Source of the DNA: Antedon bifida | Lineage: Eukaryota; Echinodermata; Crinoidea; Comatulida; Antedonidae | Reading direction: 5' to 3' | Length of the DNA stretch: 64,000 nt | NCBI GenBank assembly: GCA_963402885.1 | Contig: OY727102.1 | Span: 8,308,001 to 8,372,000, forward strand | In this document: in pieces, positions 11,197-64,000 of the stretch | Numbering within the stretch: the stretch's first letter is position 1 | How the letters are laid out: every line of letters starts with the position of its first letter | Program-made: the position numbers and the translations under genes | Notes under the pieces: generated by a model | Seen by the model: the letters and a program-made list of their open reading frames with translations, nothing else | Told to the model about the DNA's origin: nothing | The model's database searches: none

Positions 11197-12240
11197 TCAA
11201 GAGACAAACAAATATATTTTACATTTTTTACTATTCATTTTAAACCCGGAACCCCCCTTTAAGCTGAAAGGAAGTTGCCATTTCTCAGACCATGCAAATA
11301 ATTTATTCAGATCTTCCTGTAATCCATTTGATTCTTCCACACTGTTCGCCAAGTTGTACATTTTGGTATCATCTGCAAACATTTTTACTTTTGAACTAAC
11401 TCCTTCAGGGAGATCATTAATAAATATATTGAACAGTGCAGGACAAAGCACGCTGCTCTCTGGGACTCCGCTACTAACTCGCAGGCTTTCTGAATGAACT
11501 CCATTTAACACAACTTGTTATGACCGTCCAGAAATAAATGCTCTAATCCAGTTTAATAAATTTCCTCCAATGCCGTACGCCTGTAATTTGTTTAACAGCC
11601 TTTCATGTGGTACACTGTCAAACGCTTTTTTGAAATCTAGAAAGATGCAATCAAAACATTGACCCTCTTCAATCCATTTGGTCCATTGTTCCAAAACTTC
11701 AATCATCAAAGTGGTACATGAACCACCTGATCTAAAGCCATGTTGATTAGTAGAAAAAAGGTGGTTGACTTCCATATGATTTATCAAGGCATTTCTTACA
11801 AACGTCTTCATGGTCTTGCATATTATAGATGTAAGGCTGACGGGTCTGTAATTTAGAGGGTCTGATTTTTTACCCTTCTTAAAAATTGGCACTACTTTGG
11901 CTTGTTTCCATGAATTTGGTAGTGACTCTATTCTCCATTAATTTTGAAAACATATCTTGTAAAATAGGGCTAAGTTCACTACTTAGTTCTTTAAGCACTC
12001 TTGAATGTAATCCATCGGGTCCCGGAGACTTGCAGATATCCAGGCGCCGTAAATAAGATTCTATATCTGTTGATGAGAATTTCACAGTAACCAGTTCGGG
12101 CCAGAGAAGCGGGATGGTAAGTCAGGAATATTAAGAACGTCCTCTAACGTAAAAACTGAGGCAAAGGCTTTATTGAACACTTTTGCTTTCCCGTGATCAT
12201 CTGACACCACCTCAAGCAAATTCGCAGGTTAGGAAAAACA
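11197..12240 (-). pseudogene. CR1/L2-like non-LTR retrotransposon, decayed reverse transcriptase
   Basis: Three overlapping minus-strand fragments read as one reverse transcriptase. 11879-12085 has the CKSPGPDGLHSRVLKELS thumb-side motif. 11518-11892 has DPLNYRPVSLTS, QHGFRSGGSC and LDFKKAFDSVPHERLL. 11197-11511 has the FADD catalytic motif (FADDTKMY) and an LRVSSGVPESSVLCPALFNIFIND block. Weak similarity continues up to 12240. A stop after FISGRS and a frame change near 11880-11892 disrupt the reading frame. There is no endonuclease or 3' tail, so this is a dead internal fragment. The clade call (CR1/jockey-like) rests on motif style. Confidence 0.85.
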
Positions 12241-18200: not shown

Positions 18201-21200
18201 TACGCAAATTATTTTTACTTGCTACCTAACGAAAAAAACCAATTTCATATTCAATGGTGAAATTTATGATTAAATAGACGGTGTGTCAATGCCCCTTTGC
18301 ACCTGTTCTAGCCAATTTATGGGTCAAAAAATGATGCAAATACTTTCTTTGACTTTATTAACGATCAGCAGCCTAACATAAAAGTTCACAATTGAATATG
18401 GTCTTCACAGGTCTCCTCACTAATTTTTTTTTCTTAGAAAATTAGGCTTGTTCGTACTTTGATTAACAGAGTTTACAAAATTGAATAATTCCTGGTCTAG
18501 TTTTAGTAATGGCATTTCCATTCTTAAAACCGTTTAAGTAAGAACTGTTTCCCCCTCAGTATAATTTATGATAATATTTATTGATATCTTAATAATTTTC
18601 TCTCTCCTTGCAATGTTACGTCTGTTGAGTCGATTATTGAACAAAATAAGGTTTTTTTTTAACATGCAATTATTGCAAAGGAGTTACTATTAAATTAGCA
18701 TTGAAATCATTTAAAATTTCAAACTTTTTTAGTCTTAAGGACCCTGTCCCCGATATGTTCCGCTCTCGTGTTGTATATAAATTTAAATGTATGGGATGTA
18801 ATTCCATGTATATTGGTGAAACCAATAGACGGTTATCAATGCGGGTGCGTGAACATTTCAGGGACAAGGCCTCTCACATTTTTCAACATTTGCAGGATTC
18901 ATAACAGTGTAAGGCCCTCGCGAATGCGGAATGCTTCACCATTCTTCTGCAGATTCCGCCTTTAAACTTATGATCAAGCCCTCCACATTGCGTGGAGGAA
19001 ATCTTCCTTTGAACAAACAAATCTATAACTTAGGCGTCACGCTTGCCATATGATTGTTGTCTACGTTTTTTTGTGTTTTATTATGCTAATTACTTCCTCA
19101 TTTACATACAACCTGTCCTATTGGCATATAAGTACTCTAGGCGTTGTTTTCTGTTCTGATGATGAGAATAGTTTCTCTAAACATGTCAAGTTATTTTAAG
19201 GCAGTTTGCCTATTTATCAAATGCCTCACTATATCAATTTTAAGTATTATAAAAAAAAATGTGAATACAAAGAGTTAAACAGAACATTTTTTTAAATCTT
19301 TTATGGGTCTCTCCAATCTTAATTCATTCATTATTGTATGCATATATTTTGGTTTACAATAATTCATTATTATATAATATAATAAAATAATATTATAGAT
19401 CAAGTTAAGGCAGCACACAAACAATATTTTTTTCATAGTACTGTATACAAATACTGCACATACATTACATTAAAATAATATTTATAATGGATAGTGTTTC
19501 AAATAACAGTTACATTTTTTTAACAAGCAATTTCATGAAAAAGAATTCCTTAATAATTATATATTTCTTATCTATCATTCATTTTTTTTACATAATTATT
19601 ATTTATAACATTGATGCTATGTATTTTCTTTCTTTTTTTTCATTCTTTATTTTCAGTTATAAAGAGATTATTTAGCTGTTAGTTGTTTTAATACATTAGC
19701 AAATAAACAGAACATTTTACTCCAAATAACTATTCAATATTTTGGCCCATATTAAAGATAATAACAGAATTGCTGGCTTGATTTAAGATATTTTAATATT
19801 AACTATTGCAATATTAAGGGCATGAATTCTATTCATACTAGTTTATGTTGAGCTTAACAACACACTTGCACATTTCATTCAAAATCAGTTATTATTTTGT
19901 CAATCGTAAGGTGGTTTTAAACAGCACTAAATGAAGAGATATTTACTCTTGAATAGAGTACAAGGCAAGGATATATGCATACTTTTTCCTCTGAAAAGGT
20001 GGAGAAATGTTTGAAATAAAATTTACCTCATCGTGTCCAAGTACTCTAAAGTGGTGTGTTTCTTCTATCAGAGAATTTTCACAGCCAACTGAGAAAAGAA
20101 GATAACTATTAATAATAATAATATCCTGGATTTATATGTTGTGAAACCTAAGCGCTGTACATATTATTACCCCGGTCAATTTTTGGGTCAAATGGAAACA
20201 TATTCCCACAATTTTTTTTCTTAGGCTTTTTCTTTATTTGAAACGGTTTATGAATCTCTATCAGTCAGACAACTTCAATTGCTTATTTTAAGACTGCTTT
20301 GAAAACTGAATGTGCGCTATTTATTATCACTATTTCTAAATTGCAGTTGGACTTGATATGTAAAACAGAATAAGATATTTCAAAGCAAACTAAGGCATTT
20401 AAAAGCCCTCAACATTTTCCCACTACTACCAAGTATTAACAGAAGTCCCAAAAAGCCCTTACAAAGGTAGATGATGAGCTTAGATTACTGTACATACTTC
20501 ACCAGAACAATGTTTTTCCATGCCTTGCAACTATATGTCTTAGGCCAAGTGACGACAGTAGTTTTTACCTATTGCTTACCTGGACAAGGAAGTGAGTAGC
20601 CTATTTCATTGTGTTGGATAAATTGACGTTCATTCAATTTCGTATGGCAGTATAGTTTAAAGCATTCTAAGCAGATCACGTGACTTGATTCACAAGAAAA
20701 TACCAGTACAGGGTCACTAAAATAATATGAAAATGATATTTATAGTGAATTGAATGTATATATTGTAGTAAATTTGTTTACGAAACACAAACCAACTTGG
20801 TTGGCATTTATCAATATTTGCTTACATTTTTGCTTAAGCAGAAATATTTAAGAAGTGCTTAAGCAAACTTAATATTATTTATCAAACCGAGCAGAAAAAT
20901 TGTCTTAGTTAAATTTTACTTTGCGCATGCAAATATTAAACTCCAGAGGGCAGCAAATTATGTCTTAAGACGAAAAATCCTTGCTTACATGTGCGCATCA
21001 GCTTTTTTCTCTTAGCAATGGCTGCGCTATAACATTTTATATCAGCATTCTTCACTCCCAACAAGAGGGCGCATTCTGGTTACTATGTTTTTATTACTTG
21101 AAATACATACGAAAATCATTCGCTCTAAACTTAAATCAAATCAACATCTATTTATTTTTATCAATGACAGCGACCCTTGGCAGCCGATACAGTTAGTTAG

Positions 21201-32844: not shown

Positions 32845-35800
32845 ATGCCTATAGAGGAACTGAAACCATTGTTGGCGAATAATTTGAATAAAAGTAAGTT
32901 TATTATTTTTGTGGTGTACACTTAATAAAATACATGTTAGTGGATATTAAGAAGAATGTTCAGAAATTACATTCAACCTTTATTACGATATTTAAGTGAT
33001 ATTTTTAAATTTACAATTCCACTCTATTCAAGATGCGAATTAGATCTAAAAAAGTTATTTATTTGAATCAAGTTGAAATCAAAACAGATCGTAACTTACT
33101 AGAATTGAATTTTGATTATGATTTTTGATTTTTTTCCTCACTTTTGTTGTTAACACCACTTTTATTCATTCAATCATCTTTATATTTTCCTACATGATAA
33201 TGAAGTACAGTAAATTCTCTACTTTTTTCGTTATTTTCTGTTTTCTCATATCTATTACTTTTATACAAAATTGATTATTAAACCCACTACTGTAGTATAA
33301 CTAATGATCACTATAGTAAAATATCAGTCTTTTCTTTCTAATGCATGTACCGTAATTATATACAATACGTAAAATGCCATACATACTTTTCCCTTTTTTT
33401 AAACAATCATTACATCAATAGTATTATAACATATTACACCATTAATAGTAATCATACTAATACTAAAGATCAGAACAATACAATTCTAATAGTTTTGATT
33501 AAGATTGACTGTACATGACAGGTCATTGATTTCAATTGATTAGGCAAGAAAAATGTTGTTCAAGTTAGATACATTGTGATTGGAATGTGTACAATTGTAG
33601 CTGCGTTGATCAACAGCTTCCGGAACATTTTCAGTGTTGCTATCACAGTCATGGTGAGACAAAACAAAACATATTTGGATAACAATTCACAAATAACAAC
33701 AAAAGACGAAAACAATCTTGTACTGGTAAGTACATGTAGTTTCATTTAATATACAAATAAATAAATGTTTATTAGTTTAAAGACAGAACATTTTTTCAAG
33801 AGATAACAAAATGAATTCTCTTCAAACAACGAATACAAGACATTCATTATTTGTTTAATAACACACCTACTGTTCTATATTTAACCTTTTATGTAAATAA
33901 TCAGACGCTTCGATTTTGAATCAAATATCGAAGCAGACAGCAAATATTCGGTGCTAGAATTTTTACCGCGCAGAGCAGTTGTTATGTCCTACTATTTTTT
34001 TAAAACCCTAAGATGGAACACGTTTCAATAACGATTTGTAGTGTTTTTCTGAGTAGAAATTGTATTATCATAATCTTCTGTTGATTTTTACTGCATAAAA
34101 ATAAATAATTGAAATAATAAATAATAATAAATTTAGGTCAATGGATATACTTTTGCGCTTTGGTGATAGTTTTCATTGACTTTTTTCTCTCATTTTTTGT
34201 TCCACTGAAAGAAAGAAATAAATTAAATTATTTATTTATATATTATTTTTTTTTTGTAACTGTGGGTATGTTCCATTATTATTGTACTAACTAGGCGTAC
34301 AATCCACATTTAATTATTGTAATTGTTCACACTTTTCTCCCTAATCAGAAATAATTATTTCAATAACACTTATGTCATGTTGACATCATGATTATTTTTT
34401 CCTTTTGTCCATTGTATTCCTGTTCTTCCTTCATTTTATAAATTTTTAGTGAGTATCCATCTACGGTATTCAAGAACGTATAATAATATACACATGTTAT
34501 GTAAATAATAAAAGACATGCATTATTAATTAAATTAACTTTAGTTGACTTCTCTAGAATGATTAAAATGTTAAGAATGAAAAATACATGTTTTAAAACTT
34601 GCGGTGATGTAAATCGTATCTTTCCGTTATACAATGTGCATTCTATTTTAAAGTCTGGTGAGTTTGATTGGAATGAAAAGACGCAACAATTATTACTCAG
34701 TGCATTTTATTATGGTTACTGCATCATGCCCATAGCAGGTGGATGGCTGGCCGATACAGTTGGCGCGAAAAGGGTAGTAACTATTGCTATGGTATTGTCT
34801 TTTACTTCAAACGCATTGATTCCTGTGACAGCCAGGACAAATGTATGGTTACTTTTTACAATGAAAGTACTGGATGGTATTTTCCAGGTGAGTGTATACA
34901 TTTATGGTACACCATCGTAGGCCTGCGTTCTAATTGCAAATTCATAATAAATCAATACGGTGAAATTCCCAACTTAGATATTTCTGTTAGTTCTTTTAAA
35001 ACAAAATTATTAAATTATCTCAATATTTATTTTTTTTTGATATTGAAAATGTGTGTAGTTGGTCACTTTCTTTTAGATGCTTTAATTGTAGAACGTAATT
35101 TTTTGTTTGTTTATTTCTTGCTCTGTTCTGGGTTGACCAACTAGTATAGGTGTTTAGCACCTGTTTGGTCTTTCCTTGCCTTTTGTGTTTGTTTTTTCTT
35201 CTTTGTATTGTATATGGCAGAACATTGAATAAATAAATAAATAAATAAATAAAGTATGTAGCAGTAAGTCATACGTTGTAATACCTGTCACACGTGCAGT
35301 GGCATAAACGCCGGGACGTACGCAACGCAAGTAAATTTGACCACACATGATAGATCATTAAACTGTAGTCTGTCAACTTGTTAACTTGCTTGCGTTGCGC
35401 TTACGTTCGTGCGATACGTCCTTAGTGGGAACCAACCTAAGTGGCCCTCCAACGCTGGAGTAATTGGGCTTTTTCTAAAAACCCTTTTCATATTTTAATG
35501 CCTGTTTTTTTTCTCTGGGCCTTGATCAAGGCCCCCGGGGTCGTAGTAGTGCGTAGTAGAAAGGTTTATCACAAAGCAACATGTACTATACAAAAAAAAA
35601 CAACAAAACCGTCGTGTATTCAGAATTCACTTTTTTTTGCACTTTGTTAATTTACCTCTGAAATATGGTGTAAGAAGCATTTTTGGGTAGAAGCTGGGAT
35701 CCACTTGATTTAAGATATTTCGACCTCGCTGATTACGAATATGGCGGATCCCAAGCGAAATTCGGCCATCTAAGCCCTTAATTTGCATAATTAAAAATGG

Positions 35801-38800
35801 CGGCCATTTTTTATAATTACCCTATATCTCGAGAACCACTAGTCACAGATAATTAATTTTGGTGTCAAAATGTTTTAAATATATGTTTTTATATTCACTT
35901 TAATGACACATTTTCTAAAAAAATGGATGCAAGTCTTATTTCTGACATTTTGACCTTTGACCTTGATTTATCGTATCTCAGTAACCAATAATCGGAGAGA
36001 CACGAAATAGGGCTCAAATTGTTCAGAAACTATACATTCATATTTATTATAATAAAATGTTTTTACAAAAAATAGCCGATTCTACAACTATTGACCTTTG
36101 AACTATTAGTCTAATATAATAATATAATAATAATATAACTTTGAAAATTGTGGTCTTATGAATTTTTTTTTTTTTAAATTGTTTAAAACATGTGTGTTTC
36201 TATCCAGTCTAATGGCACATTTTGTACAAGAATGGCCGATATTATGGTTATTGACCTTTAAACTACAGCATAGGCCTACTGTATACTGAATATAATATAA
36301 TTGCATAACTATGAAATTATTTATACACAATAATAATTAGTAAAATTATAAAATTCACTGCCATCAAATATGATGTGTTATGATTTATATAGATTTAAAA
36401 AAAAATTTGAACACGCAAGTTACATTTGTTGAAATTTGAAATTACCTGCCATCAATATGATGGAGTATGATTATAGATTTTTAAAAATGTGAACATGTCA
36501 GCTACATTTGGAAATTACCTGCCATCAATATGATGGATTATGATTATAGATTTAAAAAAGAATTTGAACACGTAAGCTACATTTGAAAATTACCTGCCAT
36601 CAATATGATGGATTATGATTATAGATTTAAAAAAGAATTTGAACACGTAAGCTACATTTGAAAATTACCTGCCATCAATATGATGGATTATGATTGTATA
36701 GATTTAAAAGAAAATGTGAACACGTAAGCTACATTTGGAATGAACATGTTAAGGGCATCAGTTAAGATCATTCATGCAAAGGTTTCCGTCATCTTTAGCG
36801 TTGTTACAGCGGCATAAAGCTGTACATGGTAGTTTTGACTTCTTGCACCTACATCTATTGGTTATGCATCGTGTCTTGCATCCACAATAAATCATCTCTA
36901 ACGAAGCAGTAGGAATAGCTTCATTTTTCAGAAGCACTGGTTGAAGTTTACCATTAAATCGATAGCTCCCAACCAAAATCTGTTGGTGATGGCAAATGCT
37001 GGATTGGCGATACAGCTTTTTTCCATACGAGTGCTTGGAAGTGTGTTCTTTTTATATGTTGGTGCACTGCATCGCTTGTTGGAGGTAATGCCTCTGGTTT
37101 TGTTTTTTAAAAGCCTAACTTCATTGGTACTTTTAACTTGACCAACACCGTAAACGTAGCAAATGAATCTTTCTGATTTCATAATAACTTGGTCACTGAT
37201 AGGTTTTCTCCCAGGTCTTTAATTAGTTCATAATTTTTTTTTAATACTTCCCATGCCGATGCCTTTGAGTGACCACTAGATATGAGCAGGGAAGAGTTAA
37301 ATTACTGTATGTATGTATTAATGTAATTTAACTCTTCCCTGGATATGAGGTAGTATCGCATCCACTAATAGTGTGGAATGGAATCAGTGCTTTTGCAGAA
37401 CCCTCGGACAAGGCTTGAAAAATGTCTTTTATAGATACTTTCTTTTTTTGGATGTCCCTGTCATCATCCTTTTGGATACCATGCTTTGGTAGTGAGACAC
37501 TAGAATCACTAGTACGTCTGTATCCCTAGAAGCAACTACAACTGTGTCGTATCGGACATTGGCAGCATGACAAGTCTCGTGTCCGATTCTTCATGATCTG
37601 CGACCAGAGACAACGTATTCGTGTAGACTTTTGATGATTTAACAACTGATTCTTTCATAAATCCACCAGCTGTGACAATTTCTTTGTCTATAGGAGCTTG
37701 ACGAATCAACTCATCTGATAGAAATCGTGCCAGATCTGCTTTATTATCTTGTAATGCCAAAAAGTTTGACCAGCAATTTGGCAGCGGTATTTCACCACTT
37801 TCTATAATTCGACGAATTGGTCTCTGTGTTTTGGTTCATCTTTGTCTGGTGGTGTCCTTTAACGACAGTTTTAAGTTAGGCATGCCATGTTAAAAAAAAC
37901 AAAACAGAGGCATTACCTCCAACAAGCGATGCAGTGCACCAGCATATACAAAGAGCACACTTCCAAGCACTCGTATTGAAAAAAGCTGTATCGCCAATCC
38001 AGCATTTGCCATCACCAACAGATTTTGGTTGTGAGCTATCTAATGGTAAACTTCAACCAGTGCTTCTGAAAAATGAAGCTATTCCTACTGCTTTGATAGA
38101 GATGATTTATTGTGGATGCAAGACACGATGCATAACCATATAGATGTAGGTGCAAGAAGTCAAAACTACCATGTACAGTTTTATGCTGCTGTAACAACGC
38201 TAAAGATGACGGAAACCTTTGCATGAATGATCAAAACTGATGCCCCTAACATGTTCATTCCAAATGTAGTTTACGTGTTCACATTTTCTTTCAAACCTAT
38301 ACAATCATAATCCATCATATTTATGGCAGGTAATTTCCAAATTTCCAAATGTAGCTGACGTGTTCAAATTCTTTTTTAAATCTATAATCATAATCCATCA
38401 TATTGATGGCAGGTACTATACAATCATAATCCATCATATTGATGGCAGGTAATTTCCAAATTCCCAAATGTAGCTGACGTGTTCAAATTCTTTTTTAAAT
38501 CTATAATCATAATCGATCATATTGATGGCAGGTAATTTTCAAATGTAGCTTACGTGTTCACATTTAAAAAAATCTATAATCATACTCCATCATATTGATG
38601 GCAGGTAATTTCAAATTTCAACAAATGTAACTTGCGTGTTCAATTTTTTTTTTAAATCTATATAAATCATAACACATCATATTTAATGGCAGTGAATTTT
38701 ATAATTTTACTAATTATTATTGTGTATAAATAATTTCATAGTTATGCAATTATATTATATTCAGTATACAGTAGGCCTATGCTGTAGTTTAAAGGTCAAT

Positions 38801-41800
38801 AACCATACTATCGGCCATTCTTGTACAAAATGTGCTATTAGACTGGATAGAAACACACATGTTTTAAACAATTTAAAAAAAAAAAAAATTCATAAGACCA
38901 CAATTTTCAAAGTTATATTATTATTATATTATTATATTTGACTAATAGTTCAAAGGTCAATAGTTGTAGAATCGGCCATTTTTTGTAAAAACATTTCATT
39001 ATAATAAATATGAATGTATAGTTTCTGAACAATTTGAGCCCTATTTCGTGTCTCTCCGATTATTGGTTACTGAGATACGATAAATCAAGGTCAAAGGTCA
39101 AAATGTCAGAAATAAGACTTGCATCCATTTATTGAGAAAATGTGTCATTAAAGTGAATATAAAAACATATATTTAAAACATTTTGACACCAAAATTAATT
39201 ATCTGTGACTAGTTGTTCTCGAGATATAGGGTAATTATAAAAAATGGCCGCCATTTTTAATTATGCAAATTAAGGGCTTAGATGGCCGAATTTCGCTTGG
39301 GATCCGCCATATTCGTAATCAGCGAGGTCGAAATATCCTAAATCAAGTGGATCCCAGCTTCTACCCAAAAATGCTTCTTGATTCGTTTTCTAGGCCGTTT
39401 TTTGAGAAATGGAACCTGTCTAATATATATGTCGAAAATGGACCATGCCTTATAATTAGCTAACGAACTGATAATTTGAAAATAATTATGTTAGTTATCT
39501 GGTGAAAAGAGCCAAAACAGAGAACAAACAACAACTTCCTTTTGTCATTGACGATTTGATAATTGTTTATGTCAGGCAATGGTATACCCAGGATTGTACG
39601 TTATTATTGGAAGATGGACACCTCCAGAAGAAAGGGGCATGGCTACTTCGGCTACATATGCAGGTAAAAACCAACTTCTTCTCTATACATATACATTTTG
39701 TACTGTGTACACATATTGATTGAGTAATAAATAAGTAAATAAAATTAATGTAAATTAGAAAGAAGACATTCACTTCCAGTATTAGTCATTAACCAACATT
39801 TGATCTTAGCCACATTGTTAGTATTCAGTGCCAGCCATACTATTGCTTTTTCCTTCTGTTCCCCTAATCTCGTTTACAGAAATTAATGGGCTAATTAATT
39901 GATATTATACATGCACAATATGGAACGAATTAATCCTTCTAAAAATCGAGTACAAACATCTTGGTTAATCAATTTTAGGTTAACACATTTAATATGTATA
40001 ATTTATTTAGCTTCTTCGGAATATTCCATTTTGTTTTAACGAACGTTTTATAACCATTTTGCTACAAATCTTCTGTACGTATTGTTTTTTCTTTTTGTAA
40101 TTACCTCCCATGTTTAATCATTTATTATGATTATTAATCATTATAAATGTGTCGGGAGTGACGCTGTCAGGCTGTTTGTGCCTCGATCCGGGCCCTTAAA
40201 ATCCAGGGGAAACAGAAAACATCTTACTGACGTAACTCAAACAACCAAGTGGCATCACTCCCGACGAGAAAGGGAGACGAACATTCCGACATGATTTTTG
40301 TTCAATAATCATTTAAAACATTGTTTTCGTCACAGGTGCCTGTTTTGGATTCATAGCATCTTCTTACGTGGCGGCATTTCTTTGTTCAATGTCATTCAAT
40401 GGAGGATGGCCATTACCATTTTATTTCTTCAGTAAGACATATCAAATAATATCCATTTCAAGGCACAATGTTAAAAACATTTCAGGAATTAAGTCTGTTT
40501 GTAGATTGTTTGTTGTAGAAACATTTCAAATGTTTCTATTGGAATGGATAAATTAGATAGATAGATAGATGTAGATAGCAAATATTATAAGGCTAGCATT
40601 CCTTACCTCGTGGAAGTTACTCTCAACAAAAATAATAATTTAACAAAAATCATTTTAAAAAAATGTACACCAAATTTAAAGAATTAAATGAAGTTTGATA
40701 ATAACTTACAGGCTGCATTGGGTTGGTTTTCTGTTTCTTCTGGAATTGGTTTTATCTGGACAACCCAGATAGAAATCCGAGAATATCAGTTCAGGAAAAG
40801 AAACATATTCAAAGCTGGAAAGAAGATAAACATCAAAGTCAGGTATTAAAGTTTTAATGTGATAATGGCATAACTGGGGTTCTTAAATGATAAAATGTAT
40901 AGTGAGTCATAGACGACGAAGGCGTGAATAATTTAAATAGTGCACGTATTTACATTTTACAACTGTTTGCCTACGTAATCCTCCCTCCACAAACAGTTTG
41001 CAGCCTACATAAGAAATCCATTTTATCTGTAAAAAATGGCGTATATCGTACGTATATTATAATATTATCTTATTCTATTTTTCAAATAGAATCCAAGTTT
41101 GTCGTGGTCTGGAATGTTAACGTCGGCTCCATTTTGGGCATTTTTTATAAGTTACACTGCCTTCCAACTTGGTTACTTCTTTGGACACTCAAACGTACCT
41201 ATGTTTTTCACTACTATTCTAAATTTTAACGTCAAAGTTGTAAGTAGACACATATATTAAGATAGCTAAGATAAAATTGGTTGTTAGAACTAGTAAATGA
41301 ATATGTACTCAATTATGATGTCTGTGGGTGATGTTTGAGAAGAAATCGTAAATTCTAATCTTGTACAACAAAGAACGGAATGAATAGTTTATCCATCCTG
41401 TTGTTGGCGAGTTTCTCGAAATAAACAAATAAAAAAAATGCTGTGAGCAAATGGTGTATACAATCATGGCATCTGTCTATATCTATCGATATACTTCAAA
41501 TTTAGTTTACATTTAGAGCTTCGTATTTTTTTTATAATGATTTCTTTATATTCAAGACCTGTTTGATGGTTTCCATAGCGTACTTAACACAAATGCTTGT
41601 CTTCATAATAAGTGGAATTGTTGCACATTATTTAATGTCTAGAGGAAAGATTAGCATCCTAATTACTAGAAAACTAATGACATTTTTATGTAAGTACGTT
41701 TTATATACCTGTCTTTTTTTTTTTGAACCATATTTATTGAGGGTGATCCATCCAGCAATTGCTGATCATTAGGGACACAAGACAAACATATACACAAGAT

Positions 41801-43467
41801 GCTCTACATAATAAATAAGTCTTATTACAAGTCTTTGGGAGTGGAGTTGTAATTTTGTCCTTAGAAAAAATCCTGACATGTGACGGGACTTGAACCCAGG
41901 ACCCTTGGAGTGGTAGCCAAGCATCATAACCACCAAGCCACAACTCCACTTATCGGTACTGTTACACCAATAACCATTAACAAAATTGAGATTAGATCGA
42001 AAGTATTAAAACATAGCAACCCTAACAGCCTCTCTTGTTAATGGAATTAAATTGTGTTAGTGGCACTGCTGCGTAAAATATTTTATCTGAATACAATGCT
42101 TGCTCTCATTTAATGATAATTTTAAAAAGACATTTTTTAAGCTCAAGAAATCAAAATATATTTTTATATATTTAACCTTCTGCGTGCATGGTAGGGTCTA
42201 CGTTGTATCTCATGATAGAATACTCAAACATTCATTCAAGTATAAAAGCTTTGTTTCAATTACCTTTTTATTTTTCAGCATTGTTTTTACCCGCTGTTTT
42301 ATTTACGATTGTGGGATACTTTGGTGCCTACCCGGTCGTAGGAACACTTTGCATTATCGGTGCCTTGGGTGCATATGGTTTTGCAGGTTCCGGGATTGAA
42401 ACAAACGTTATGGACATCAGTCCAAATCACACCGGTCTTGTTTCTGGATTTATTTTTGTGTTTTCAAATGGAACAGGATTCGCTGGACCGGCAATTCTTG
42501 GAAAACTTTTAGAAACAGAGGTAGATTCCCTTTTTACTTGCCGTGTAATTTACAAGCTTTGCCAAAACCAATATTTTATCCGAAAAGCATACATTTCATT
42601 TGAGAAGAAAATCAATTTTTTACAATGGCCCGAAATTATGTAATTTATTAAGCACTTCATTCAAATGTCTTTCCAATCTTCCTTCGTTCAAATATAATTT
42701 AAATAAGTATCTGGTTGCGGCTTATGGCACTTAAATCTCCTGCTACTGTTTCTTAACATTATTAGTTGTTCATGTAAACTGGGCTACTATACCTTCAATA
42801 TTTTATTTATTTAATCTGCTGGCCATGACTTAAAGTTTGTCTCCAAACTTATTTTGGCCTTCTTCTGCACACCTTTTTTTTAAACTGTTGTAATTTTGTT
42901 CTTTCATTTTGTAAATGTTATGTGTGTGCAAAGAAACAATAAAAACGAACAACAACCGCATACGCATACTAAGCACATCAACAAAATAATAATAATAACA
43001 TGGCACCACCCATTGTGGATGACGTCTCCATCACTTGGGGTTAAATATTCGTTTACTTATTATTTGTTTTTATTAGGCTATGTAAGTAAAATGAAGCAAG
43101 CCTCATGAATTCATTCAGTAAGAATTCGTGACGTTTTGGAAGAACTCAGAGCATCGTAGTGATACCCAACTACTCTGTACTTTGCGATATGTGTGCTAAA
43201 AATGAATGAAAATATCCATCCATAAGTTTATTTAATATTAATATATATTGTGTTTTATTACAGAACTCAATGGAGCAGTGGCGTATCATATTCATTATCA
43301 TTGCTGTAGTACATATACTTGGACTCGTCATTTTCCTATTGTTTGGCGATGCAAAACAACAGGAATGGGATAAAGGAAAATCATCACGTGATCAGAATGA
43401 ACAGATAACTATACTGATTTTGAAGAAAATGAGACATTTTAACATAGTTTCTCATGTAGGCTTATAG
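32845..43467 (+). CDS. SLC17-family (sialin-like) organic anion transporter, complete, ten exons
   Basis: Major-facilitator carrier of the SLC17 group, which moves organic anions or phosphate across lysosomal, synaptic-vesicle or plasma membranes. Exons: 32845-32893, 33544-33725, 34654-34887, 39576-39663, 40336-40431, 40712-40842, 41090-41239, 41557-41689, 42279-42520, 43264-43467. All junctions are GT-AG and in phase, giving 502 aa, the usual size. Seen: EELKPLL near the N-terminus (acidic dileucine-type sorting signal, as in sialin), SFRNIFSVAI in TM1 with Arg43 at the conserved SLC17 Arg position, FDWNEKTQQ then GGWLADTVGAKR (MFS loop motif), AMVYPGLYVIIGRWTPPEER, TSAPFWAFF, and NVMDISPNHTGLVSGF. 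TM1 is followed by NKT and NNS sequons in a luminal loop. The substrate cannot be assigned. Intron 3 holds a 3.7-kb inverted repeat, and intron 8 a SINE. The last junctions are standard; the exon 6 donor (CAG|GTATTA) is the weakest. Confidence 0.92.
35145..35252 (+). mobile_element. LINE 3' tail with (AAAT)n
   Basis: TAGGTGTTTAGCACCTGTTT, then TTGTATTGTATATGGCAGAA, then seven AAAT repeats, the usual form of an invertebrate LINE 3' end. It lies in intron 3 of the SLC17 gene. Confidence 0.5.
36358..36745. repeat. Tandem array, ~70-bp unit, in the left arm
   Basis: Five units, each with ATTACCTGCCATCAATATGA, TGGATTATGATTATAGATTT, GAACACGTAAGCTACATTTG, with small indels. The mirrored array is at 38265-38700. 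Confidence 0.9.
36758..37182 (-). pseudogene. Cys-rich CXC-like C-terminal fragment of the element protein (left arm copy)
   Basis: The frame at 36758-36976 reads GKLQPVLLKNEAIPTASLEM then IYCGCKTRC...RCRCKKSKLPCTALCRC, a tesmin/TSO1-like cysteine pattern seen at the C-terminus of several transposon-encoded proteins in animals. The overlapping frame 36928-37182 continues upstream in another register, so a frameshift is present. The right arm holds the mirror copy. Confidence 0.6.
37287..37341. mobile_element. 55-bp hAT-type miniature element with 8-bp target duplication
   Basis: Nearly perfect palindrome starting CAGGGAAGAGTTAAATTA and ending TAATTTAACTCTTCCCTG, with a 19-bp AT-rich spacer. 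It is flanked on both sides by GATATGAG (37279-37286 and 37342-37349). The CAGGG start and an 8-bp duplication are hAT features. It is nested in the loop of the large inverted repeat, so it inserted there later. Confidence 0.9.
37536..37760 (-). pseudogene. Transposon protein fragment with HEESDTR motif, in the loop
   Basis: Reads DLARFLSDELIRQAP, then ESVVKSSKVYTNTLSLVADH followed by EESDTRLVML. The EE(A/S)DTR block after a short acidic His is familiar from uncharacterised, repeat-associated proteins of invertebrates and fish. Alone it does not define the catalytic class. The frame is followed by a stop and is disconnected from the Cys-rich piece. Confidence 0.5.
37934..38235 (+). pseudogene. 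Cys-rich CXC-like C-terminal fragment (right arm mirror copy)
   Basis: Mirrors the left-arm fragment: GKLQPVLLKNEAIPTALIEM then IYCGCKTRCIT in frame 37934-38143. The remaining Cys pattern continues in another frame to about 38235. Both copies are disrupted, and at different sites. Confidence 0.55.
38265..38700. repeat. Tandem array, ~70-bp unit, in the right arm
   Basis: Inverse complement of the 36358-36745 array, with about six units and an extra partial unit around 38415-38450, so the arms differ in copy number. Confidence 0.85.
40151..40265. mobile_element. Possible 115-bp MITE
   Basis: GTCGGGAGTGACGC at the left and GGCATCACTCCCGAC at the right are inverted ends around a GC-richer 90-bp core in SLC17 intron 4. 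No clear target duplication. Confidence 0.45.
41713..41948 (-). mobile_element. tRNA-derived SINE with poly-A tail
   Basis: On the minus strand it starts GGAGTTGTGGCTTGGTGGTT (box A region), then GGTTCAAGTCCCGTC (box B), an unrelated body, and a 12-base A tail at 41713-41724. The 5' and 3' parts of the head do not form an acceptor stem, so it is a SINE and not a tRNA gene. It lies in SLC17 intron 8, antisense to the gene. Confidence 0.75.
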
Positions 43468-46845: not shown

Positions 46846-49423
46846 ATGGCATTTCCGAAAGTTCTTTCTACCGATCCTGATTACTACGTGAAAGCATTCG
46901 AAGAACGGACAAAACGTCAACAGCGAAAGAATGTACTAGTTGATTGGACAAACCAACTGGTAAAAAATCAACTTATTGGATCTGTAACGATTGGTAAACG
47001 GCCATTAAAAGTACTTGGTGTTGGTAGCGGTTCGGGTAAGTTTATTCCTAGGTCAGATAGCCTGTTAAACACAATGAAGGGACCCTGGATGAACTGTGTG
47101 GAACAGGAAGTCTGCAAAAAATGGCGTTTCAACAAACGTGTGTCTATGCCTAGCATTATAAGGAGAAGGGTTGTTGTATGATTAAAACGCATGTAATCTA
47201 AAAGAATCTCTACAGAGGAGTGGGGGGGGGGGGGGGGGGGGTCGGACGTATTTGGGACACTGCCCCCTGAACACCCATTTCAAACAACTATTGATTGCAA
47301 TCGTGTGTCAATAACATAGATTGCTTTAGGCTTTGGTATGAAATCAGTGAACGATAAAAGGCAAATATTATGCCTATAGATAGACCTGGCTCTAAGCAAT
47401 CAACGTAACCTCTATATGAACTGAGGCTCCCTAGATTCCTATACAAATATAATCATGTAAAATATTAAATAACTTTTGAACAAGTATCAATTGTATTTGT
47501 GAACTTTGATCTCTAAGGATATGCGAAGCACTTACTTTAGGCTATATTATCACTTTTCAGTTACATTTACAAAAAAGAAATTTTAAATGATTTGAATGCT
47601 AATTTAATATTAACTCATTTGCAATATTTACAAAGGAGTTATTATTAAATTAGCATTCAAATAATTTAAACTTGTTTAGTCTTAAGGACCCTGTCCCCGA
47701 TATGTCCCGCTCTCGTGTGATATATAAATTTAAATGTATGGGATGTAATTCCATGTATATTGATGAAACCAATAGACGGTTATCAATGCGGGTGCGTGAA
47801 CATTTCAGGGACAAGGCTTCTCACATTTTTCAACATCTGCAGGATTCAGAACGGTGTAACCCTTGCTAATGCGGAATGCTTCACCGTTCTGGATTCTGCA
47901 GATTCCGCTTTCAAACTTAAGGTCAAGGAAGCCCTCCACATCGCATAGAGTAAACGTTCCTTGAACAAACATATCTATAACTTAGGCGTAACGCTCGCCA
48001 TATGATTGTTTGTTGCCTACGTTCCTTGTTGTTTTGTCATGAATTACTTCCTCATTTACATACAACCTGTCCTATTGGTATATAAGTACTCTAGGCGTTG
48101 TTTTCTGCTCTGATGATGATAATAGTTTCTCGAAACATGTCAAGACATTTTAAGGCAGTTTTCCTATTTATCAAATGCCTCACAATCGTTATTTTAACTC
48201 GAAATTTCGGTGCGAATCATTCATGATTTATCTAAAAAAAACACCAATTTGATGTTGTTTTCTTATTCTAAAAGGTGAGGTTGAACTTGGCAATATCTCG
48301 AAACTGCTGGAGGTTTTTTCATCGATAGAGGTTACTGTATTAGAACCTTCCAAAAAATACATAGACATCTACAAGGAATCCCTGGAGAAGAGTAAACTGA
48401 AAGGGTTAACATATCAGTGGCGACAGCAAACGTTGGATGAATATCGTGCTGATGTTGGAGCGAGTATCAAATATGATATAATCTTTTCTGTTAACTCTTT
48501 GTACTACGTTGATGACCTTAAAGATTCATTGGAGTATTTGTATAAAATACTAGAACACGGTGGGAAATATTGCGTCATTCTAGTAACCGGTAAGCAATTG
48601 TAACTACTTCAAATATTGTATTATTGCCAGTGTAACTAACATGTTAAAATGTTAATATACACACAACAGGCAAAAAACATTAATTCTAAACCGTCCAGTG
48701 ATATACTAATACGATATATACTAATTTGAAACGATAAGATGAGGAAATCTGTGAGAAAGAGAAAAAGTCGCACCATCCAAGATATATATCCACTGTCGCT
48801 ATGGACATCACATTTTATGAAGAGAAGTCTCTAAGACAGCTAAACAATGAATCCTCTTCATTATCGTAAACTTACAACGGATCCCACCCCGTAAATTGCG
48901 GATAAGGTGGCAAAATCTGTTTCTGTGAAAAAACACAATCATTTCACACATATTTGGCTCAATAGGTATAGAAATTAATTCTAAACCACCTGGTGATATA
49001 CTGAAATTTAATTAATTAATTTGAAACGTTATGATACATATATTTATGGTCTTTTTCACAGAAACAACCGGGTGCTATCGATTGTGGAAGAACTTCAGTT
49101 CTCTGTATCAAAGTGTTGCTTCCTTTATTCAAATATCATCACGAGAAGTAATTGATTGCTTAAAAGCTCTCAATATTGGTTATGAATTAGAGAGAACCAG
49201 GAACGACATTGATGTTACTGAATGTTTCAACCAAGGATCTATAGAAGGCAAATATATGATAGATTTCTTGAGTCAAGTGGTCAATCTACGCGAAAGTGTA
49301 GATGAATCAACCTATTCGGAATTCGTTGGTTTTCTTAAAAACATAAGTGCTCCACAGGAAGGATATGGAAGTAAGCTGTGGTTAGAAAGTGGATGGGAAG
49401 CAACATTTGTTAAAAAGCAATAA
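46846..49423 (+). CDS. Histamine N-methyltransferase-like SAM-dependent methyltransferase (complete, three exons)
   Basis: Class I SAM-dependent methyltransferase closest to histamine N-methyltransferase, which methylates the imidazole ring of histamine in the cytosol. Exons 46846-47035, 48275-48589 and 49062-49423 join in phase (GT-AG) to 288 aa; human HNMT has 292. Seen: YYVKAFEERTKRQ, the SAM motif GVGSGSGEVEL (58-68), VTVLEPSKKYIDIYKE (acidic SAM contact), SVNSLYYVDDLKDSLEYLYK, GGKYCVILVT, GCYRLWKNF, and a C-terminal half matching HNMT order (ISSREVIDCL, DVTECFNQG). The start is the ATG aligned with HNMT; an upstream in-frame ATG at 46594 adds an unrelated repeat-derived stretch and is not favoured. 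Histamine-contacting Glu28 of human HNMT aligns with Arg27 here (from memory), so the substrate may differ. Intron 1 carries a Penelope copy and a G20 tract. Confidence 0.88.
47222..47241. repeat. G20 homopolymer
   Basis: Twenty consecutive G on the plus strand in HNMT-like intron 1. A run this long is exceptional in such AT-rich sequence and prone to length errors. Confidence 0.95.
47630..48183 (+). mobile_element. Penelope-like element, 5'-truncated copy 2
   Basis: Near-identical to 18675-19233: a leading AAAGGAGTTATTATTAAATT, the GIY-YIG fragment (47672-47869), CCTGTCCTATTGG and the GATGATGATAATAGTTTC terminal segment ending TCAAATGCCTCAC. Lies in HNMT-like intron 1, sense to the gene. 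The nuclease motif reads YIDET instead of YIGET. A short inverted AATGATTTGAATGCTAATTT pair (47586 and 47650) precedes it. Confidence 0.9.
48661..48750. repeat. Dispersed TAATTCTAAACCG repeat, copy B
   Basis: TTAATTCTAAACCGTCCAGT then GATATACTAA and TTTGAAACGATAAGATGAGG. Same family as 22861-22948; HNMT-like intron 2. Confidence 0.8.
48958..49028. repeat. Dispersed TAATTCTAAACCG repeat, copy C
   Basis: TTAATTCTAAACCACCTGGT then GATATACTGAAATTTAATTA and TTTGAAACG. Ends about 33 bases before HNMT-like exon 3, so it probably overlaps the branch-point region. Confidence 0.8.
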
Positions 49424-56779: not shown

Positions 56780-57600
56780 TTTCTGCAGACTGTTGTTGGC
56801 ATATCCCTCCAGTTCCTCCTCCTGACCTGACCACCCTGGCTGGCGTTATCCCTGCTGACAAATCCGGGATGCATTATTTTTTTTCCTATGCAATTAAGGT
56901 AGAAATCATGAATAATTCATTACCTTAATTATTTTCTATTATAAAGAATTGTAAGATAGCTGATCTACTTCCTAAATATACTAAATCTAACCCTATAAAT
57001 AATCTCTCTCAACTATTAAAAGAAAACATGTTCTTGGAAAACCTCGAACTAGACCAAACATTTCGGTTGGCAAATTATTTAATCTCTCTGCATCAGAGCC
57101 ATATATAGAGAGAGTTCCAACTTTGCGTTCACGGATTTTAGAAAGTCACATGGTGTGCACGCCGGCCATGTTTGTGTCCAACTATTCCTATGTAGCGTAT
57201 GGAGTCGAGTCATTTGCTTAAAAAATGTATAACATTCACAAGGCTTTAAATATCGAATTTAATATCAAAACAATCAATTTGTTTAAAGGTTTTTGTTAAG
57301 ATAATAACGAAATCATAAAGTTACTGCGAACATGATTTTAAACAACAAAATGTAAAAACAATGCATTACTATAGAGAATCGCTGTACAAACTAAACGCGC
57401 ACGCGTAGAGTGTGCATGGAGCGCACAACCAGAGCCGTTCCGAAATTGCTATTTTTGTTGTTTTAAGAGAGCCAGTCACTAAAAATCAAACATTAGGTGG
57501 CAAGGGTCAAAATTTCGAATTGTCTCATATTTTGCACATTGGTAGACCTTGATGTAAGTAAACCTGATGTGTAGTTTGTTTGGTAAAATATCGCTTAGTT
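56780..57600. other. No gene recognised; left flank of the large transposon
   Basis: Includes a GC-richer piece (56795-56875) reading weakly as CCTCCTCCTGACCTGACCAC and a segment near 57120-57200 of higher GC. The true left end of the next element lies here or at 57613 and could not be fixed because the matching right end is off the window. Confidence 0.3.
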
Positions 57601-58562
57601 TTCGAGAAAATCGAAAAATAACGATTTTCGGCCAATTTTGTTAATTTTTGGTGTATAATTTACATTAAGTTTAACAGCCTCTGGAAGCCAAATGTAGCAA
57701 TCTAGCGTTTTAATATTTTACACTTACGTTAACTAGCATCTTGACAATAATTTAGTAAAGTTTCAAAAAATTTGATGAAATTTTAAGATTTTTACTAATT
57801 AATTACTAATTAGCATATATAAAACTCTTAAAAAGTAGGTTAAAAACAAACGCGTTTTTTTTTCATGTGCGACGAATTTTTTTAAAATAAAAAAATCATC
57901 AATCTAAAGTTTAGATACTAATATTTATGAATCAAGTAAAAAAAATTTGGGGAAACTATTTTGCGCTCCGCGCCAGAGCCACAAAGTTGTAAGAAATTCA
58001 AAGATTTTATCTGTCGGCAAGATCAATCAGATGCACCTATTGTTATCTATTTAGCAATCTAAGTCGCTTTGAGCTAAACTTTTATTACGCGAAACAAAAT
58101 TGAAAGATAAACTGAAAGTTCCTGGAATAATTTTGAATTAAGTTGCAATTTAAACACAAACTAAAAATACGTTTCTGGTAAAATTTCAATTACTAATCAA
58201 TATACAAAATTAAGCAATTAACTAAAAATCACTCGCTTATTCTTTGTCAAACCACATTATTATAAATTATTCCATCCTCTCATAGTTTATAGGATAAAAC
58301 TGAAAAACACATTTGTTTTAACTTGTTATCGTTTTCCTGTTTGTCGAACCTGGTCGAACTTACTCAGCGAGAATGTTTCAAAACATTAACCACAGTAGAC
58401 AAAACACTTTACTGCATATATTCGATAGACAACGATATCTTCATTGGCGTTGACAACGGAACTGAATTGTTATCCATTTTAGTTTATGTCTTACAATGTA
58501 AAGACGTGTTGAAAATAATTTTTATATATACTTATTGTCTGATGGCTTTAAGTTCAAACAAG

Positions 58563-61500
58563 ATGGAGATTTCATGTTCTTTTAAATCGGTTGTTGGCGG
58601 AGCTTGTGGATTCGATAGAAAAGACCGCAAACAGAGCACTGAAGTCCTACCTTTACAAGCATGCCAGAAGGAAATCGCTGCACACAGACACATGTTTAGG
58701 TTTACGGGCATCGATAGTGAGGTAGACCTAATTCTTAGTCGAGCAGCCATGTTTACCTTGCCCGCTGATATACATAGTTGGACTGTTTGTCCCTTGCATC
58801 GATCGGAACTTGGCTTAGGTTGGTCTCGAGGAAATAACAACAGATGTAGAGTGCCGCCTGATCTCTCTAATCACATCCAAAGCAAAGGAAAGGGACCCAA
58901 GTGCGATAGGGGTATTAGCAAAGAAGATTCGCAACTAATATTAAAGAAAACAGGAACTTTCCTGCAAGTTGGTTCAGGTAAATATAATTTAATTTTTATA
59001 TTTTTATATATTTAATGTAATTTAAACTGTTAAATAAAACCCTGTAAGTAAATGTTTTTACGCTTTTTATCAGGTATCTGTTCAACTTGCCGTAAGATGC
59101 TGAAGTCATTGTTACCTGTAACCTCGAACACTGAAACAAATAACCCTAGTCTCGTCGATCAGATGAGCGCACTAACAACTGTAAGTTAAAAAATACCGTA
59201 CAGTATGACATTTATGAATACGCATTTATTGGCGGAAAGATTAAGTAAATAATGTGTTTCATGTTACTTTGTTCATTTTTTTTCGGATGTTGGTGGTAGG
59301 AGGTATATTTTCTGCATTCCCTGCCATTGTCATCATCATTTTATATATATCACGAATCAGTGCGTCAATAATTGAATCAAAGTCAGTAGTAATTTTTTAC
59401 CAATATTATTCTTATTTTCAGGAAAGTAATAAGGATGAGTTTTACATGTCATTAGCCACTCCAACTTGTCAAACACCGGCGTGTGATGTTATGGATACTC
59501 AAATGAGCCTATATCAATTTTGCGATCCAACTTTTGCTTCAGCTACCTCAGAAGATGAATCAATTCAATCTACACCAAGAGAAAAATTAAATGCATTTCT
59601 CAATTCAAGGGACGTCAGTCCAATTAGATATCCTTTATCTGCACCGCTGGAGCAAGTTTCAGACCGTACTAAACGTTTCCACATGCGCAAGGCTCGTCAA
59701 GTTGTCTCTATGTGCCTGGAAGAAATCGCACCTGGTCAGTCGACTACTCTACTTGAAGGCTTATCAAGTGATAAAACCACAGAAGCTGACGAAAGAACCG
59801 ATTCTTCTCTATTAGATGCTCTATCAGAATGCTATCTTCATACTAACCACTGGAGTACAAGACGTCAGATTTTATCGATCATGGTTGATAAGGTTACCTT
59901 CAAGGAACTGCAGAAATGGATACCTAACTTGACTAGATACCGTTTTAACGTGGCCAAACACCATTTATTGTTACATGGTAGAGGTTCTGTAATTCAACCT
60001 CTAAAGAACACTAGAGTATGCGTACAGCCAGGGAAAATTGACCACTTTGTTACCTTTATAACAAGTTCTCAAGTTATACAAGACTTGCCATTTGGAGAAA
60101 AAACTCTAAAACTTTCTACAGACAGAGTTATAAAAATCCCAAATGTTGTGCGTAATCTTATCCCAGAACAATGTATTCTTCAATACGAGAGTTACTGTCA
60201 AGAGAAGAATTTTCAACCTATGAGCCGCAGTACATTGCGTAGAGTTCTCAGTGTTTGTTCTGCTTCTGTACGCAAATCCTTACAGGGCCTTGATTATATC
60301 TCTGCCAATGGTGGAAAAGCCTTCGATGACCTGGAGAACATCGTTGATAAGCTGGGAGATTGCTATGAAATGGGTTTGACTTGGGCCAAACAAACAAACC
60401 AAAAACTTAAAGATGCCAAGCGCTACCTAAAAGGTGACTATAAGGTAATAACAATCTTGTTTAAATATCTTGATAACTGCTACAGTATAAATAGAAAAAC
60501 AATATAATAAAAAAGGCAAAGTAGCGCGTTGTATGTTGCTCAGTAAAGCATGTAAGAAACATTCAAGACTAATTACATTTTTTATACAATTCCTTTTATA
60601 TATTATTGCAGATTCACATTTCTAACCATTCTGAAGTTGCCGATCATTGTAGGGCGTATGCTCTTAGTTCTTGCGAAGACAAATATTACCAGACTGTCTG
60701 TGATCATGACCACAATGCAAGATGTGACAGATGTCGTATATTTCCAGAAGCTTTGTCTGAAATTCTTGAAGCTTTAAACGAAGTGCGCTGCTCTTCTGAA
60801 GAAAAAGATGACATGGAGTACGTAATTACACGGTCAGTCCAAGACATCGAGACGTGGAAGGCGCATATCTTAAGATCCATTAACCAAGACGCTGCACGAC
60901 ATGATATTTTAGGAGATTTGAATCCTGGTTGTGCCCTAATTGTTTTAGACTGGGCGATGAAGTTTGTACCACGTAAATACCGCGAAAGCCAAAGAGACTG
61001 GTTTGGAAAGCGTGGACTTCCGTGGCACATAACGGTCTTGACGAAAAAGAATAAAGATAGAGAGGTACAGATGCTTACGTTTGTGCATATTTTTAAATCT
61101 TGCAGTCAGGATAGTACTACTGTTGTGGCAATCATCGACGATGTGTTGAGGCAGCTGCCATCTATTGCACCCGATATACACTCTGTGTATCTGCGTCAAG
61201 ATAATGCAGGATGCTACCACTCTGCCCTAACATTACTCTCGTTACCAAAGATAGCGAAAGAAACGAAGATCAAAATCCGACGTATTGATTTTTCGGACCC
61301 TCAAGGGGGGAAGGGCGCATGTGACCGCAAGGCAGCCCATATCAAAAATCACATGAATAAATATCTTAATTCAGGAAAAGATATTGAAAATCCAGAGCAG
61401 ATGAAGGCAGCAATTGAGTCCTTTGGAGGCATTCCTGGAGTGAAAGTCATAGTTTGTGCTTTACCTACTGGTACTATTTGTGCAGCAGGGAAATGGAAAG

Positions 61501-62603
61501 GCGTGAGTCACATCAACAACATAGAGTTCGGAAGCAGGTCCATGAAGGTCTGGATGGCGTATGGTATTGGTGCAGGACAAAATCTACTTTTGAGTAAATT
61601 CTGTGTGCCCTCGAAACTACCCAATTTAATTCATAACAAGGATACAACGTCTGATCAAAATCAAGTATCATTTATTACAGTAAAAGCAAGAATACAAGCC
61701 AAGACATCTCATGAAGAACAAGCTGATATAAATGACGACGAACAAATAGAAAGTGAAGAAAGTCCTGGCACCCCCAGCAAACTGTTCTTTTGTCGCGAAC
61801 AAGGTTGCATTAGGTCATATCAGAGATACTCTTCCCTAGAGAAACACTTAGATTATGAAAATCACAAGAACGCACTAGAACATGAAACACTATATGACAG
61901 GGCAATGAAATTATACGCAACACAACTAGAAGAGGGTACTTCTAAAAATCCAGAACCAACAAGAACCAACGATTTGCCACGGTTTGACATTGGCCCCGAC
62001 CTGCAAATGGGCTGGGCGTTAAAGTCCTCTGCAAAAAAAACCCGATTTTCTGTTCCACAGAAAACCTACCTTATTGATGTTTTTGACGTTGGAGAGCAGA
62101 CAGGACAGAAAGCTGATCCATGTGATGTCTCACGAGAGATGAGATCGGCCAGGCACAGCGATGGTTCACATCTATTTAGCAAGAGTGAATTTTTAACAGC
62201 ACAGCAGATTGCAAGTTTTTTCTCACGCTTAGCTAAAAAAAGGAGGACAGATGCAGCCGTTCATGATGATGATGACGAAGATGATGATTACGATAGTATT
62301 GAAGATGGTGACGAAGTCCAAGAAAATGGAGACGATTCAAAAACGGAAAAAGAAAGAGAAATTCAAATTTTGTCGCAAACCGTACTGGACACAATAGGCT
62401 TGCAGCATCCAATAATGTTTGAAAGGCATAATATTTGTGAACTGAAAGCTCAAGAAAAACTCTCCAGATTCTCTTTGCCAATGTTGCAAGAAATGTGTAC
62501 TTCTCTTGAACTTGATACCACAGATATAACCATAAAGCGCAAGAAGCCATACATTGATTTGCTGGGAAAGCTGGTTTCCACGTGCAGTTGCTCGATTGAT
62601 TAA
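58563..62603 (+). CDS. Intact transposase-like protein of a long-TIR element, 1,178 aa, four exons
   Basis: Exons 58563-58977, 59074-59180, 59422-60444 and 60612-62603 join in phase with GT-AG borders and no internal stop. N-terminal Cys/His region: CSFKSVVGGACGF, VCPLHRSELGLGW, CSTCRK (139-146). Exon 4 holds the probable catalytic core: VLDWAMKF (Asp628), DWFGKRGLPWH, a FVHIFKSCSQDS block, VYLRQDNAGCYHS (Asp712), DFSDPQGGKGACDRKAAH (Asp753) and NIEFGSRSMKVW. The spacing suggests an RNase-H-fold DD(E/D) transposase; this is inference. Then a C2H2 finger (Cys909, Cys914, His927, His933), an acidic run (1066-1092) and a SAP-like end (1130-1171). The start at 58563 precedes the conserved N-terminus; upstream in-frame ATGs at 58542 and 58323 are possible. 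Similar uncharacterised proteins occur in cnidarian and echinoderm genomes as I recall. Host domestication is unlikely given the flanking inverted repeats. Confidence 0.85.
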
Positions 62604-62719
62604 GGTAGCAACGAAGGTAAAACTGTGTCTGTGAGAATTCTTTAAAATAACAATTTAATATGTGGGACGATTCTGTTGTCTAAATTCTTAGTATTTTAAG
62701 TCGCGTTCTGTAAATTTTT

Positions 62720-62725
62720 AATAAA
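62720..62725 (+). terminator. Transposase gene polyadenylation signal AATAAA
   Basis: Canonical AATAAA 117 bases after the stop codon, inside the element and before the nested repeats. Confidence 0.55.
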
Positions 62726-62781
62726 GCGAAGGGGTGAAACAATGGTAAAACAATAATTTATTGTTTAGGCCACGAATTATT

Positions 62782-63180
62782 AGGAAATTTCGCACGAGCA
62801 CATGAACGTTAACGGTTGTCACCATTCTACTCATTTGCATAACAACAGAGTTCAGCGAACATTTGCGTTAACGTACTTGCTCGTTTTGATTTCGCGCTTC
62901 GACGGGAAGTGTAGAACGCAACACATGTGTAGCGCACGCAACATACGCCACAAGTATTGACACAAATCACGGAATACCTTGGGTTTAGAGACTAAGCCTA
63001 GCCAGGCATGTTTAATCATGTTTTGGTTAACGTTTTTCATTGACGCTATTTTTCAGAAATAAGGTTCTTGACGCACGTAACTAAAGTTTTTCGTAATGCT
63101 TGCGCACGCACAGATCAAGTTGTTTACAAAGTGGGCGGAGCTTGGAAAATAGCGTTAACGTGCTCGTGCGAAAACTCCCT
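62782..63180. mobile_element. Possible nested ~400-bp TIR element
   Basis: AGGAAATTTCGCACGAGCAC with following GTTAACG at the left, and CGTTAACGTGCTCGTGCGAA then AACTCCCT at the right, in inverse complement. An internal GCGTTAACGTACTTGCTCG echoes the ends. Interior is non-coding. Confidence 0.55.
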
Positions 63181-63215
63181 ATATGAGAAGATAAGAAAAT
63201 TATGTTGTAAAGCCT

Positions 63216-63358
63216 GTTTTCCACTAGGCGAAATTATTCGCGCAAATCAAACATTTTCGCGTATACGCGCACGCCCAATGGAACACGTTGTTGATAAAAA
63301 TAAACTGCGCATGCAAAAAATGTTCAATTCGCGAGAATAAATTCACCTTGTGGAAAAC
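63216..63358. mobile_element. 143-bp MITE with GTTTTCCAC ends, nested
   Basis: GTTTTCCACTAGGCGAAATT at the left and AATTCACCTTGTGGAAAAC at the right are imperfect inverted repeats (with CG-rich GCG steps inside both). The GTTTTCCACxAGGCGAA end is a familiar MITE terminus. The open frame at 63068-63340 runs across this element and is not a gene. Confidence 0.75.
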
Positions 63359-64000
63359 ATAACAGGCTTGATGAAGCTAAGCGAGTTATAATGTTGAGCT
63401 CAGATAGTAATTGCTTAATTTCATCATGGGTTAGTCGTTTAAATTTTACTAGAAATTTATTTTTAGTTTGTGTTTATATTAAAACGTAAATCCAAATTAT
63501 TCAGGACCTTTCAGTTTACCTTTAAAGTTTGTTTCTCATAGTAAAATTTACCTTAAATATGTAAATAGAGAACAATAGGTACATCCGATTGATCTTGCCG
63601 ACAGATAAAATCTTTGAATTTCTTACAAATTTGTGGCTCTGGCGCGGAGCGCAAATAAGTTTCCCCAAATTTTTTTTACTTGATTCATAAATATTAGTAT
63701 CTAAACTTTAGATTGATGATTTTTTTATTAAAAAAAAATTCGTCGCACATGAAAAAAAACGCGTTTGTTTTTACCCTACTTTTTAAGAGTTTTATATATG
63801 CTAATTAGTAATTAATTAGTAAAAATCTTAGAATTTCATCAAATTTTTTGAAACTTTACTTAATTATTGTCAAGATGCTAGTTAACATAAGTGTAAAATA
63901 TTTAAACGCTAGGTAGCTACGTTTGGCTTCCAGAGGCTGTTAAACTTAATGTAAATTATACACCAAAAATTAACAAAATTGGCCGAAAATCGTTATTTTT

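Follow-up and report, generated by a model that had tools for sequence, protein, structure and literature searches.

We analysed a 64,000-nt stretch of the genome of the crinoid Antedon bifida, the whole of which is called the window below (bases 8308001-8372000 of contig C15, in a genome of 315.6 Mb and 27 contigs). The right end of the window is occupied by a DNA transposon with long terminal inverted repeats and a spliced transposase gene of its own. An intact element of this kind had been proposed from the letters alone (from now on, the sequence-only reading), and it was borne out by 20 genomic copies with 4-bp duplications, one pair of which was identical over 6,690 bp. The features of the element, in window coordinates, are the following.

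57463..57466, no strand: TTAA target site duplication on the left side, its right-hand counterpart falling outside the window
57467..64000, + strand: part of the transposon inside the window, delimited by the genome copies
57467..58254, + strand: left terminal inverted repeat, ~790 bp, outer end GAGAGCC
58542..58977, + strand: exon 1, with CPLH and other Cys/His residues; donor GT in 20/20 copies
59074..59180, + strand: exon 2, with CSTC at residues 148-151; AG and GT in 20/20 copies
59422..60444, + strand: exon 3, without known domain (Pfam 0 families; NCBIfam one chance-level row far under cut-off)
60612..62603, + strand: exon 4, from the joined reading frame, with a Cys/His cluster, the probable DDD (three-aspartate) catalytic core, a Cys2His2-like motif, an acidic run and the C-terminal tail
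60888..61415, + strand: residues 615-790, probably an RNase H-like catalytic core, from the predicted order of elements
60948..60950, + strand: proposed first catalytic acid, D635
61200..61202, + strand: proposed second catalytic acid, D719, in RQDNAGCYH
61323..61325, + strand: proposed third catalytic acid, D760, in GGKGACD
62720..62725, + strand: possible poly(A) signal AATAAA
63364..64000, - strand: part of the right terminal inverted repeat inside the window, which continues to the equivalent of 64156 with outer end GCACTC

The four exons join without any internal stop, all three introns are GT-AG, and the frame is 1,185 codons long when read from the first ATG. The sequence-only reading had the same four stop-free exons and gave 1,178 residues, the length obtained by starting at the second in-frame methionine (residue 8). 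In 500 mononucleotide shuffles no open run exceeded 160 codons, while the longest one within 58542-62603 reaches 676, hence we do not consider the frame a product of chance. The AATAAA attributed to the gene was found 117 bases past the end of the stop codon, and the acidic run is present in the protein. As for the C2H2 finger, Cys2His2-like residues do occur at positions 916, 921, 934 and 940, although Pfam gives no finger there, and the tail described as SAP-like received no support from Pfam.

Within the window, the inverted arms that bracket the gene pair 57614-58254 with 63364-64000 (578/624 ungapped columns match), and this pairing is still free of mismatches where the window stops. For this reason the start at 57613 in the sequence-only reading, which rightly recognised arms of at least 590 bp, was set by the end of the window and not by the element. 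By means of 20 copies fetched with their flanks, the transposon was delimited from window position 57467 to the equivalent of 64156, that is 6,690 bp with termini 5'-GAG..CTC-3'. The outer right end, which had to be sought beyond the window, was thus located 156 bp past its right edge together with the 4-bp target duplication. The complete arms are ~790 bp long and identical to each other in 718/772 ungapped columns; their divergence is higher in the outermost ~45 bp (with a 10-base gap) and in the innermost ~230 bp than between them. Two additional inverted repeats, similar to miniature inverted-repeat transposable elements (MITEs), were observed between the gene and the right arm (62788-62811 with 63150-63173, and 63215-63257 with 63317-63359). 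Each arm of both was found in 19/20 fetched copies, so these two repeats predate the recent spread of the element.

We also searched the whole genome with the arms and with a part of the protein, and the copy counts obtained in this way are lower bounds. For the arms, 97 candidates were found, and 27 of the 40 scored rows had an identity of 98-100%, while the other 13, mostly right arms, were at 91-92%. The 20 copies mentioned above were taken from these 27 matches. With the part of the protein as query, 23 of the 59 rows spanned all of its 393 residues at 98-100% identity without stops, and the remaining 36 were partial, decayed or both. The sequence-only reading had indicated the absence of other copies with the same arms as evidence against a transposon; in this case, many copies were found. 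In the window itself, no further copy above chance level was detected by blastn of the arms and of the element or by tblastn.

Both arms and a flanking 4-bp duplication were present in all 20 fetched copies; the duplicated bases are TTAA in 19 of them and TTGA, on either side, in one (L058), whereas the flanks outside the duplication vary. The TTGA around L058 indicates that the 4 bp come from the target and not from the element, and that TTAA is a strongly preferred but not absolute target. Pairwise identity among the 20 copies ranged from 98.6 to 100% (median 99.5%), and the window copy was equal to L057, located on contig C11 between different flanks, over the entire 6,690 bp. Ten of the 20 copies keep the whole reading frame, with proteins of 1,185-1,187 residues, and GT-AG is conserved at the three introns in 20/20. 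It is nearly certain, in our opinion, that the element is a recently active, TTAA-inserting DNA transposon, and the family is perhaps still active. The sequence-only reading, too, had argued for recent activity, from the similarity of the arms within one copy. The activity is supported by the identity between copies at different sites, whereas the original reason is weak, since a new copy receives its two arms together from its parent. Six older, decayed stretches (L076-L081), with stops or frameshifts and with 70-99% DNA identity to the coding sequence in their aligned parts, show that the family was already present before the recent burst; they supplied no distant relative for an alignment.

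In order to evaluate selection on the protein, we compared the 10 intact copies, two of which are identical to each other, with the window copy as reference. Precisely, of the distinct changes counted, 19 were nonsynonymous (over 2,796 sites) and 17 synonymous (over 759 sites), which corresponds to a ratio of 0.30 (Fisher p 0.0006); at noncoding positions there were 56 distinct changes in 3,132. The choice of intact copies removes stops and frameshifts, but it does not by itself lower the number of missense changes. Hence the depletion of nonsynonymous changes suggests that selection acted on the transposase while the element spread.

The DD(E/D) core suggested by the sequence-only reading was evaluated with a structural model of low confidence (mean predicted local distance difference test score, pLDDT, 58.5; predicted template modelling score, pTM, 0.57). 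The predicted order, strand-helix-strand-strand-helix-strand-helix-strand-helix, agrees with an RNase H-like core, while the fold matches stay below significance. In this model, the three proposed acids sit where they are expected. D635 is just past strand 1, in a stretch with pLDDT under 50, D719 is just past strand 4 and D760 is near the start of the helix that follows strand 5; each of them is an aspartate in 20/20 copies. Among the 50 Foldseek rows listed, none had E <= 0.001, and 41 were retroviral integrases, each with E of 0.03 or more. On the basis of this model, we consider a DDD catalytic core with the triad D635/D719/D760 likely but unproven.

No relative emerged from the sequence libraries. 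The whole protein matched none of the 24,736 Pfam models at E <= 5, and six pieces of it gave only two Pfam rows, both under the cut-offs (E 0.021 and 0.035). A single row far under its cut-off was returned by NCBIfam (E 0.15), and two rows each by PHROGs (E 0.063 and 0.18) and by the PDB sequences (E 0.43 and 0.67). There was no match among phages, and two among plasmids (E 0.7 and 1). A search for related loci in viral contigs gave 22 stretches, none of them a relative. With the DNAGCYH pattern, one stretch was retrieved from viral contigs and rejected, since it lies antisense to an open frame of a phage-like contig, and 34 stretches were retrieved from the collection of genome contigs, with no convincing relative by tblastn. 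Three more patterns gave 0, 12 and 0 stretches in viral contigs, and the 12 contained no relative by tblastn. In the open-access literature, no paper was recognised as describing this transposon.

Taken together, we read the element as an autonomous, recently moved, 6,690-bp cut-and-paste transposon that inserts at TTAA and belongs to Sola, a known superfamily on which few studies exist, and we assign to this reading as a whole a probability of roughly 0.62. Its placement in Sola, compared by description only, follows anatomy and not homology, and is likely although unproven. According to the sequence-only reading, no named superfamily matched; this holds in the libraries searched, but novelty at the superfamily level is not supported, because the 4-bp TTAA duplication, the size, the arm length and the DDD-type triad fit Sola. 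The element is probably a new family within Sola, with a new superfamily as second choice. Bao et al. are said to have given TTAA, in 2009, as the target of Sola3, and from its target the element would belong to that group.

In the mechanism that we propose, the spliced mRNA of the four-exon gene would be translated into a transposase of ~1,185 residues, whose Cys/His-rich parts may serve to bind the two long arms. Excision of the element, and the joining of its ends to the TTAA target at two phosphates separated by 4 bases, would both be the work of the putative DDD-type RNase H-like core (D635, D719, D760). Gap filling by the host would then produce the TTAA duplication that we observed. We know of no biochemical work on Sola transposases, although no search was aimed at it. 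If the assignment to Sola is true, the element would be well placed as a candidate active transposon of the Sola type, given that 10/20 copies have a full frame and a pair is identical over 6,690 bp. piggyBac excision restores a clean TTAA, and a working TTAA-inserting enzyme with ~790-bp arms would allow both the role of such long arms and a piggyBac-like clean excision to be tested.

Elsewhere in the window we observed a 1.49-kb inverted repeat, 93.6% identical (35672-37108 with 37894-39379), with shorter internal repeats at ~36350-36740 and 38258-38707, and a direct repeat of ~590 bp, 87% identical (18665-19243 with 47620-48197), perhaps two copies of a mobile element. Two open frames that match the major facilitator superfamily (MFS) of transporters, at 34558-34917 (Pfam MFS_1, E 3.2e-12) and 42188-42640 (E 0.0088, under the curated cut-off), are perhaps exons of one host gene. 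A reverse transcriptase fragment on the - strand (11521-11892, Pfam RVT_1, E 1.6e-17) may be a remnant similar to long interspersed nuclear elements (LINEs). Taken with the spliced transposase gene, these MFS and reverse transcriptase matches would suggest an animal genome.

The main alternative to Sola is a superfamily not described so far, made up of DDD transposons that insert at TTAA, have an integrase-like core and move in the same way, without a specific relationship to Sola, Kolobok or piggyBac. This is possible, yet we hold it unlikely. It agrees with the lack of anything above chance in Pfam, NCBIfam, PHROGs and the PDB sequences, and with the retroviral integrases that dominate the listed Foldseek rows, though each of these is weak. 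Nevertheless, such library results say little if the libraries contain no Sola model, and the duplication, element size, arm length and triad all lie within the Sola range given in PMC10741241. Slightly more doubtful still is the bolder claim that the element founds such a superfamily in animals, defined by an integrase-like core, ~790-bp arms and a transposase of 1,185 residues that contains several Cys/His clusters, and still mobile.

A divergent member of Kolobok would be expected to share the TTAA duplication and 5'-RR..YY-3' ends that PMC9587614 gives for this group, found in animals among others, and the element does so with TTAA in 19/20 copies (TTGA in 1/20) and 5'-GAG..CTC-3' termini. 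Kolobok transposases, however, have a C/DxxH motif between the second D and the last acid, which, given the putative triad, is missing from the core proposed here; past D719 there is a single, remote candidate, the DGSH of the C-terminal part (1039-1042), and we consider this assignment improbable.

A piggyBac-type element would also explain the TTAA duplication. Pfam contains a piggyBac model, and no Pfam family was matched; moreover, piggyBac arms are far shorter than ~790 bp. Since the ends are GAG..CTC and not 5'-CC..GG-3', the rule stated for piggyBac termini in PMC10045372, such an origin is very improbable. Finally, the stretch might be no transposon but a segmental duplication, or a host gene enclosed by inverted repeats that have nothing to do with it. 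The introns and nothing further point that way, and this reading is refuted by the exact ends common to 20/20 copies, each with different flanks and its own 4-bp duplication.

Three other groups each differ from the element in a feature that was compared. The weak Foldseek rows, mostly retroviral integrase cores, would fit the integrase-type DDE transposons Ginger1 and Ginger2/TDD, but in PMC2836005 Ginger1 and Ginger2 have TGTNR ends and CCGG/CCGT or RTATAY targets, against the GAG..CTC ends and the TTAA target here. In CMC/Transib, according to PMC12730594, the stretch from the second D to the last acid contains C(2)C and H(3-4)H motifs; here there is no CxxC past D719 and HIKNH stands at 765-769, which argues against this group if D719 is the second D. 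Mutator (MULE) elements have a target duplication of 7-12 bp in PMC10741241, against 4 bp here. In the same paper, Sola is described as having a DDD transposase, a 4-bp target site duplication, a size mostly of 2-9 kb and terminal inverted repeats of 11-1124 bp. The 4-bp duplication is shared by 20/20 fetched copies, the element with its 6.7 kb and its arms of ~790 bp is within both ranges, and a likeness to the DDD transposase is possible, from a low-confidence model of the core whose fold matches are not significant.

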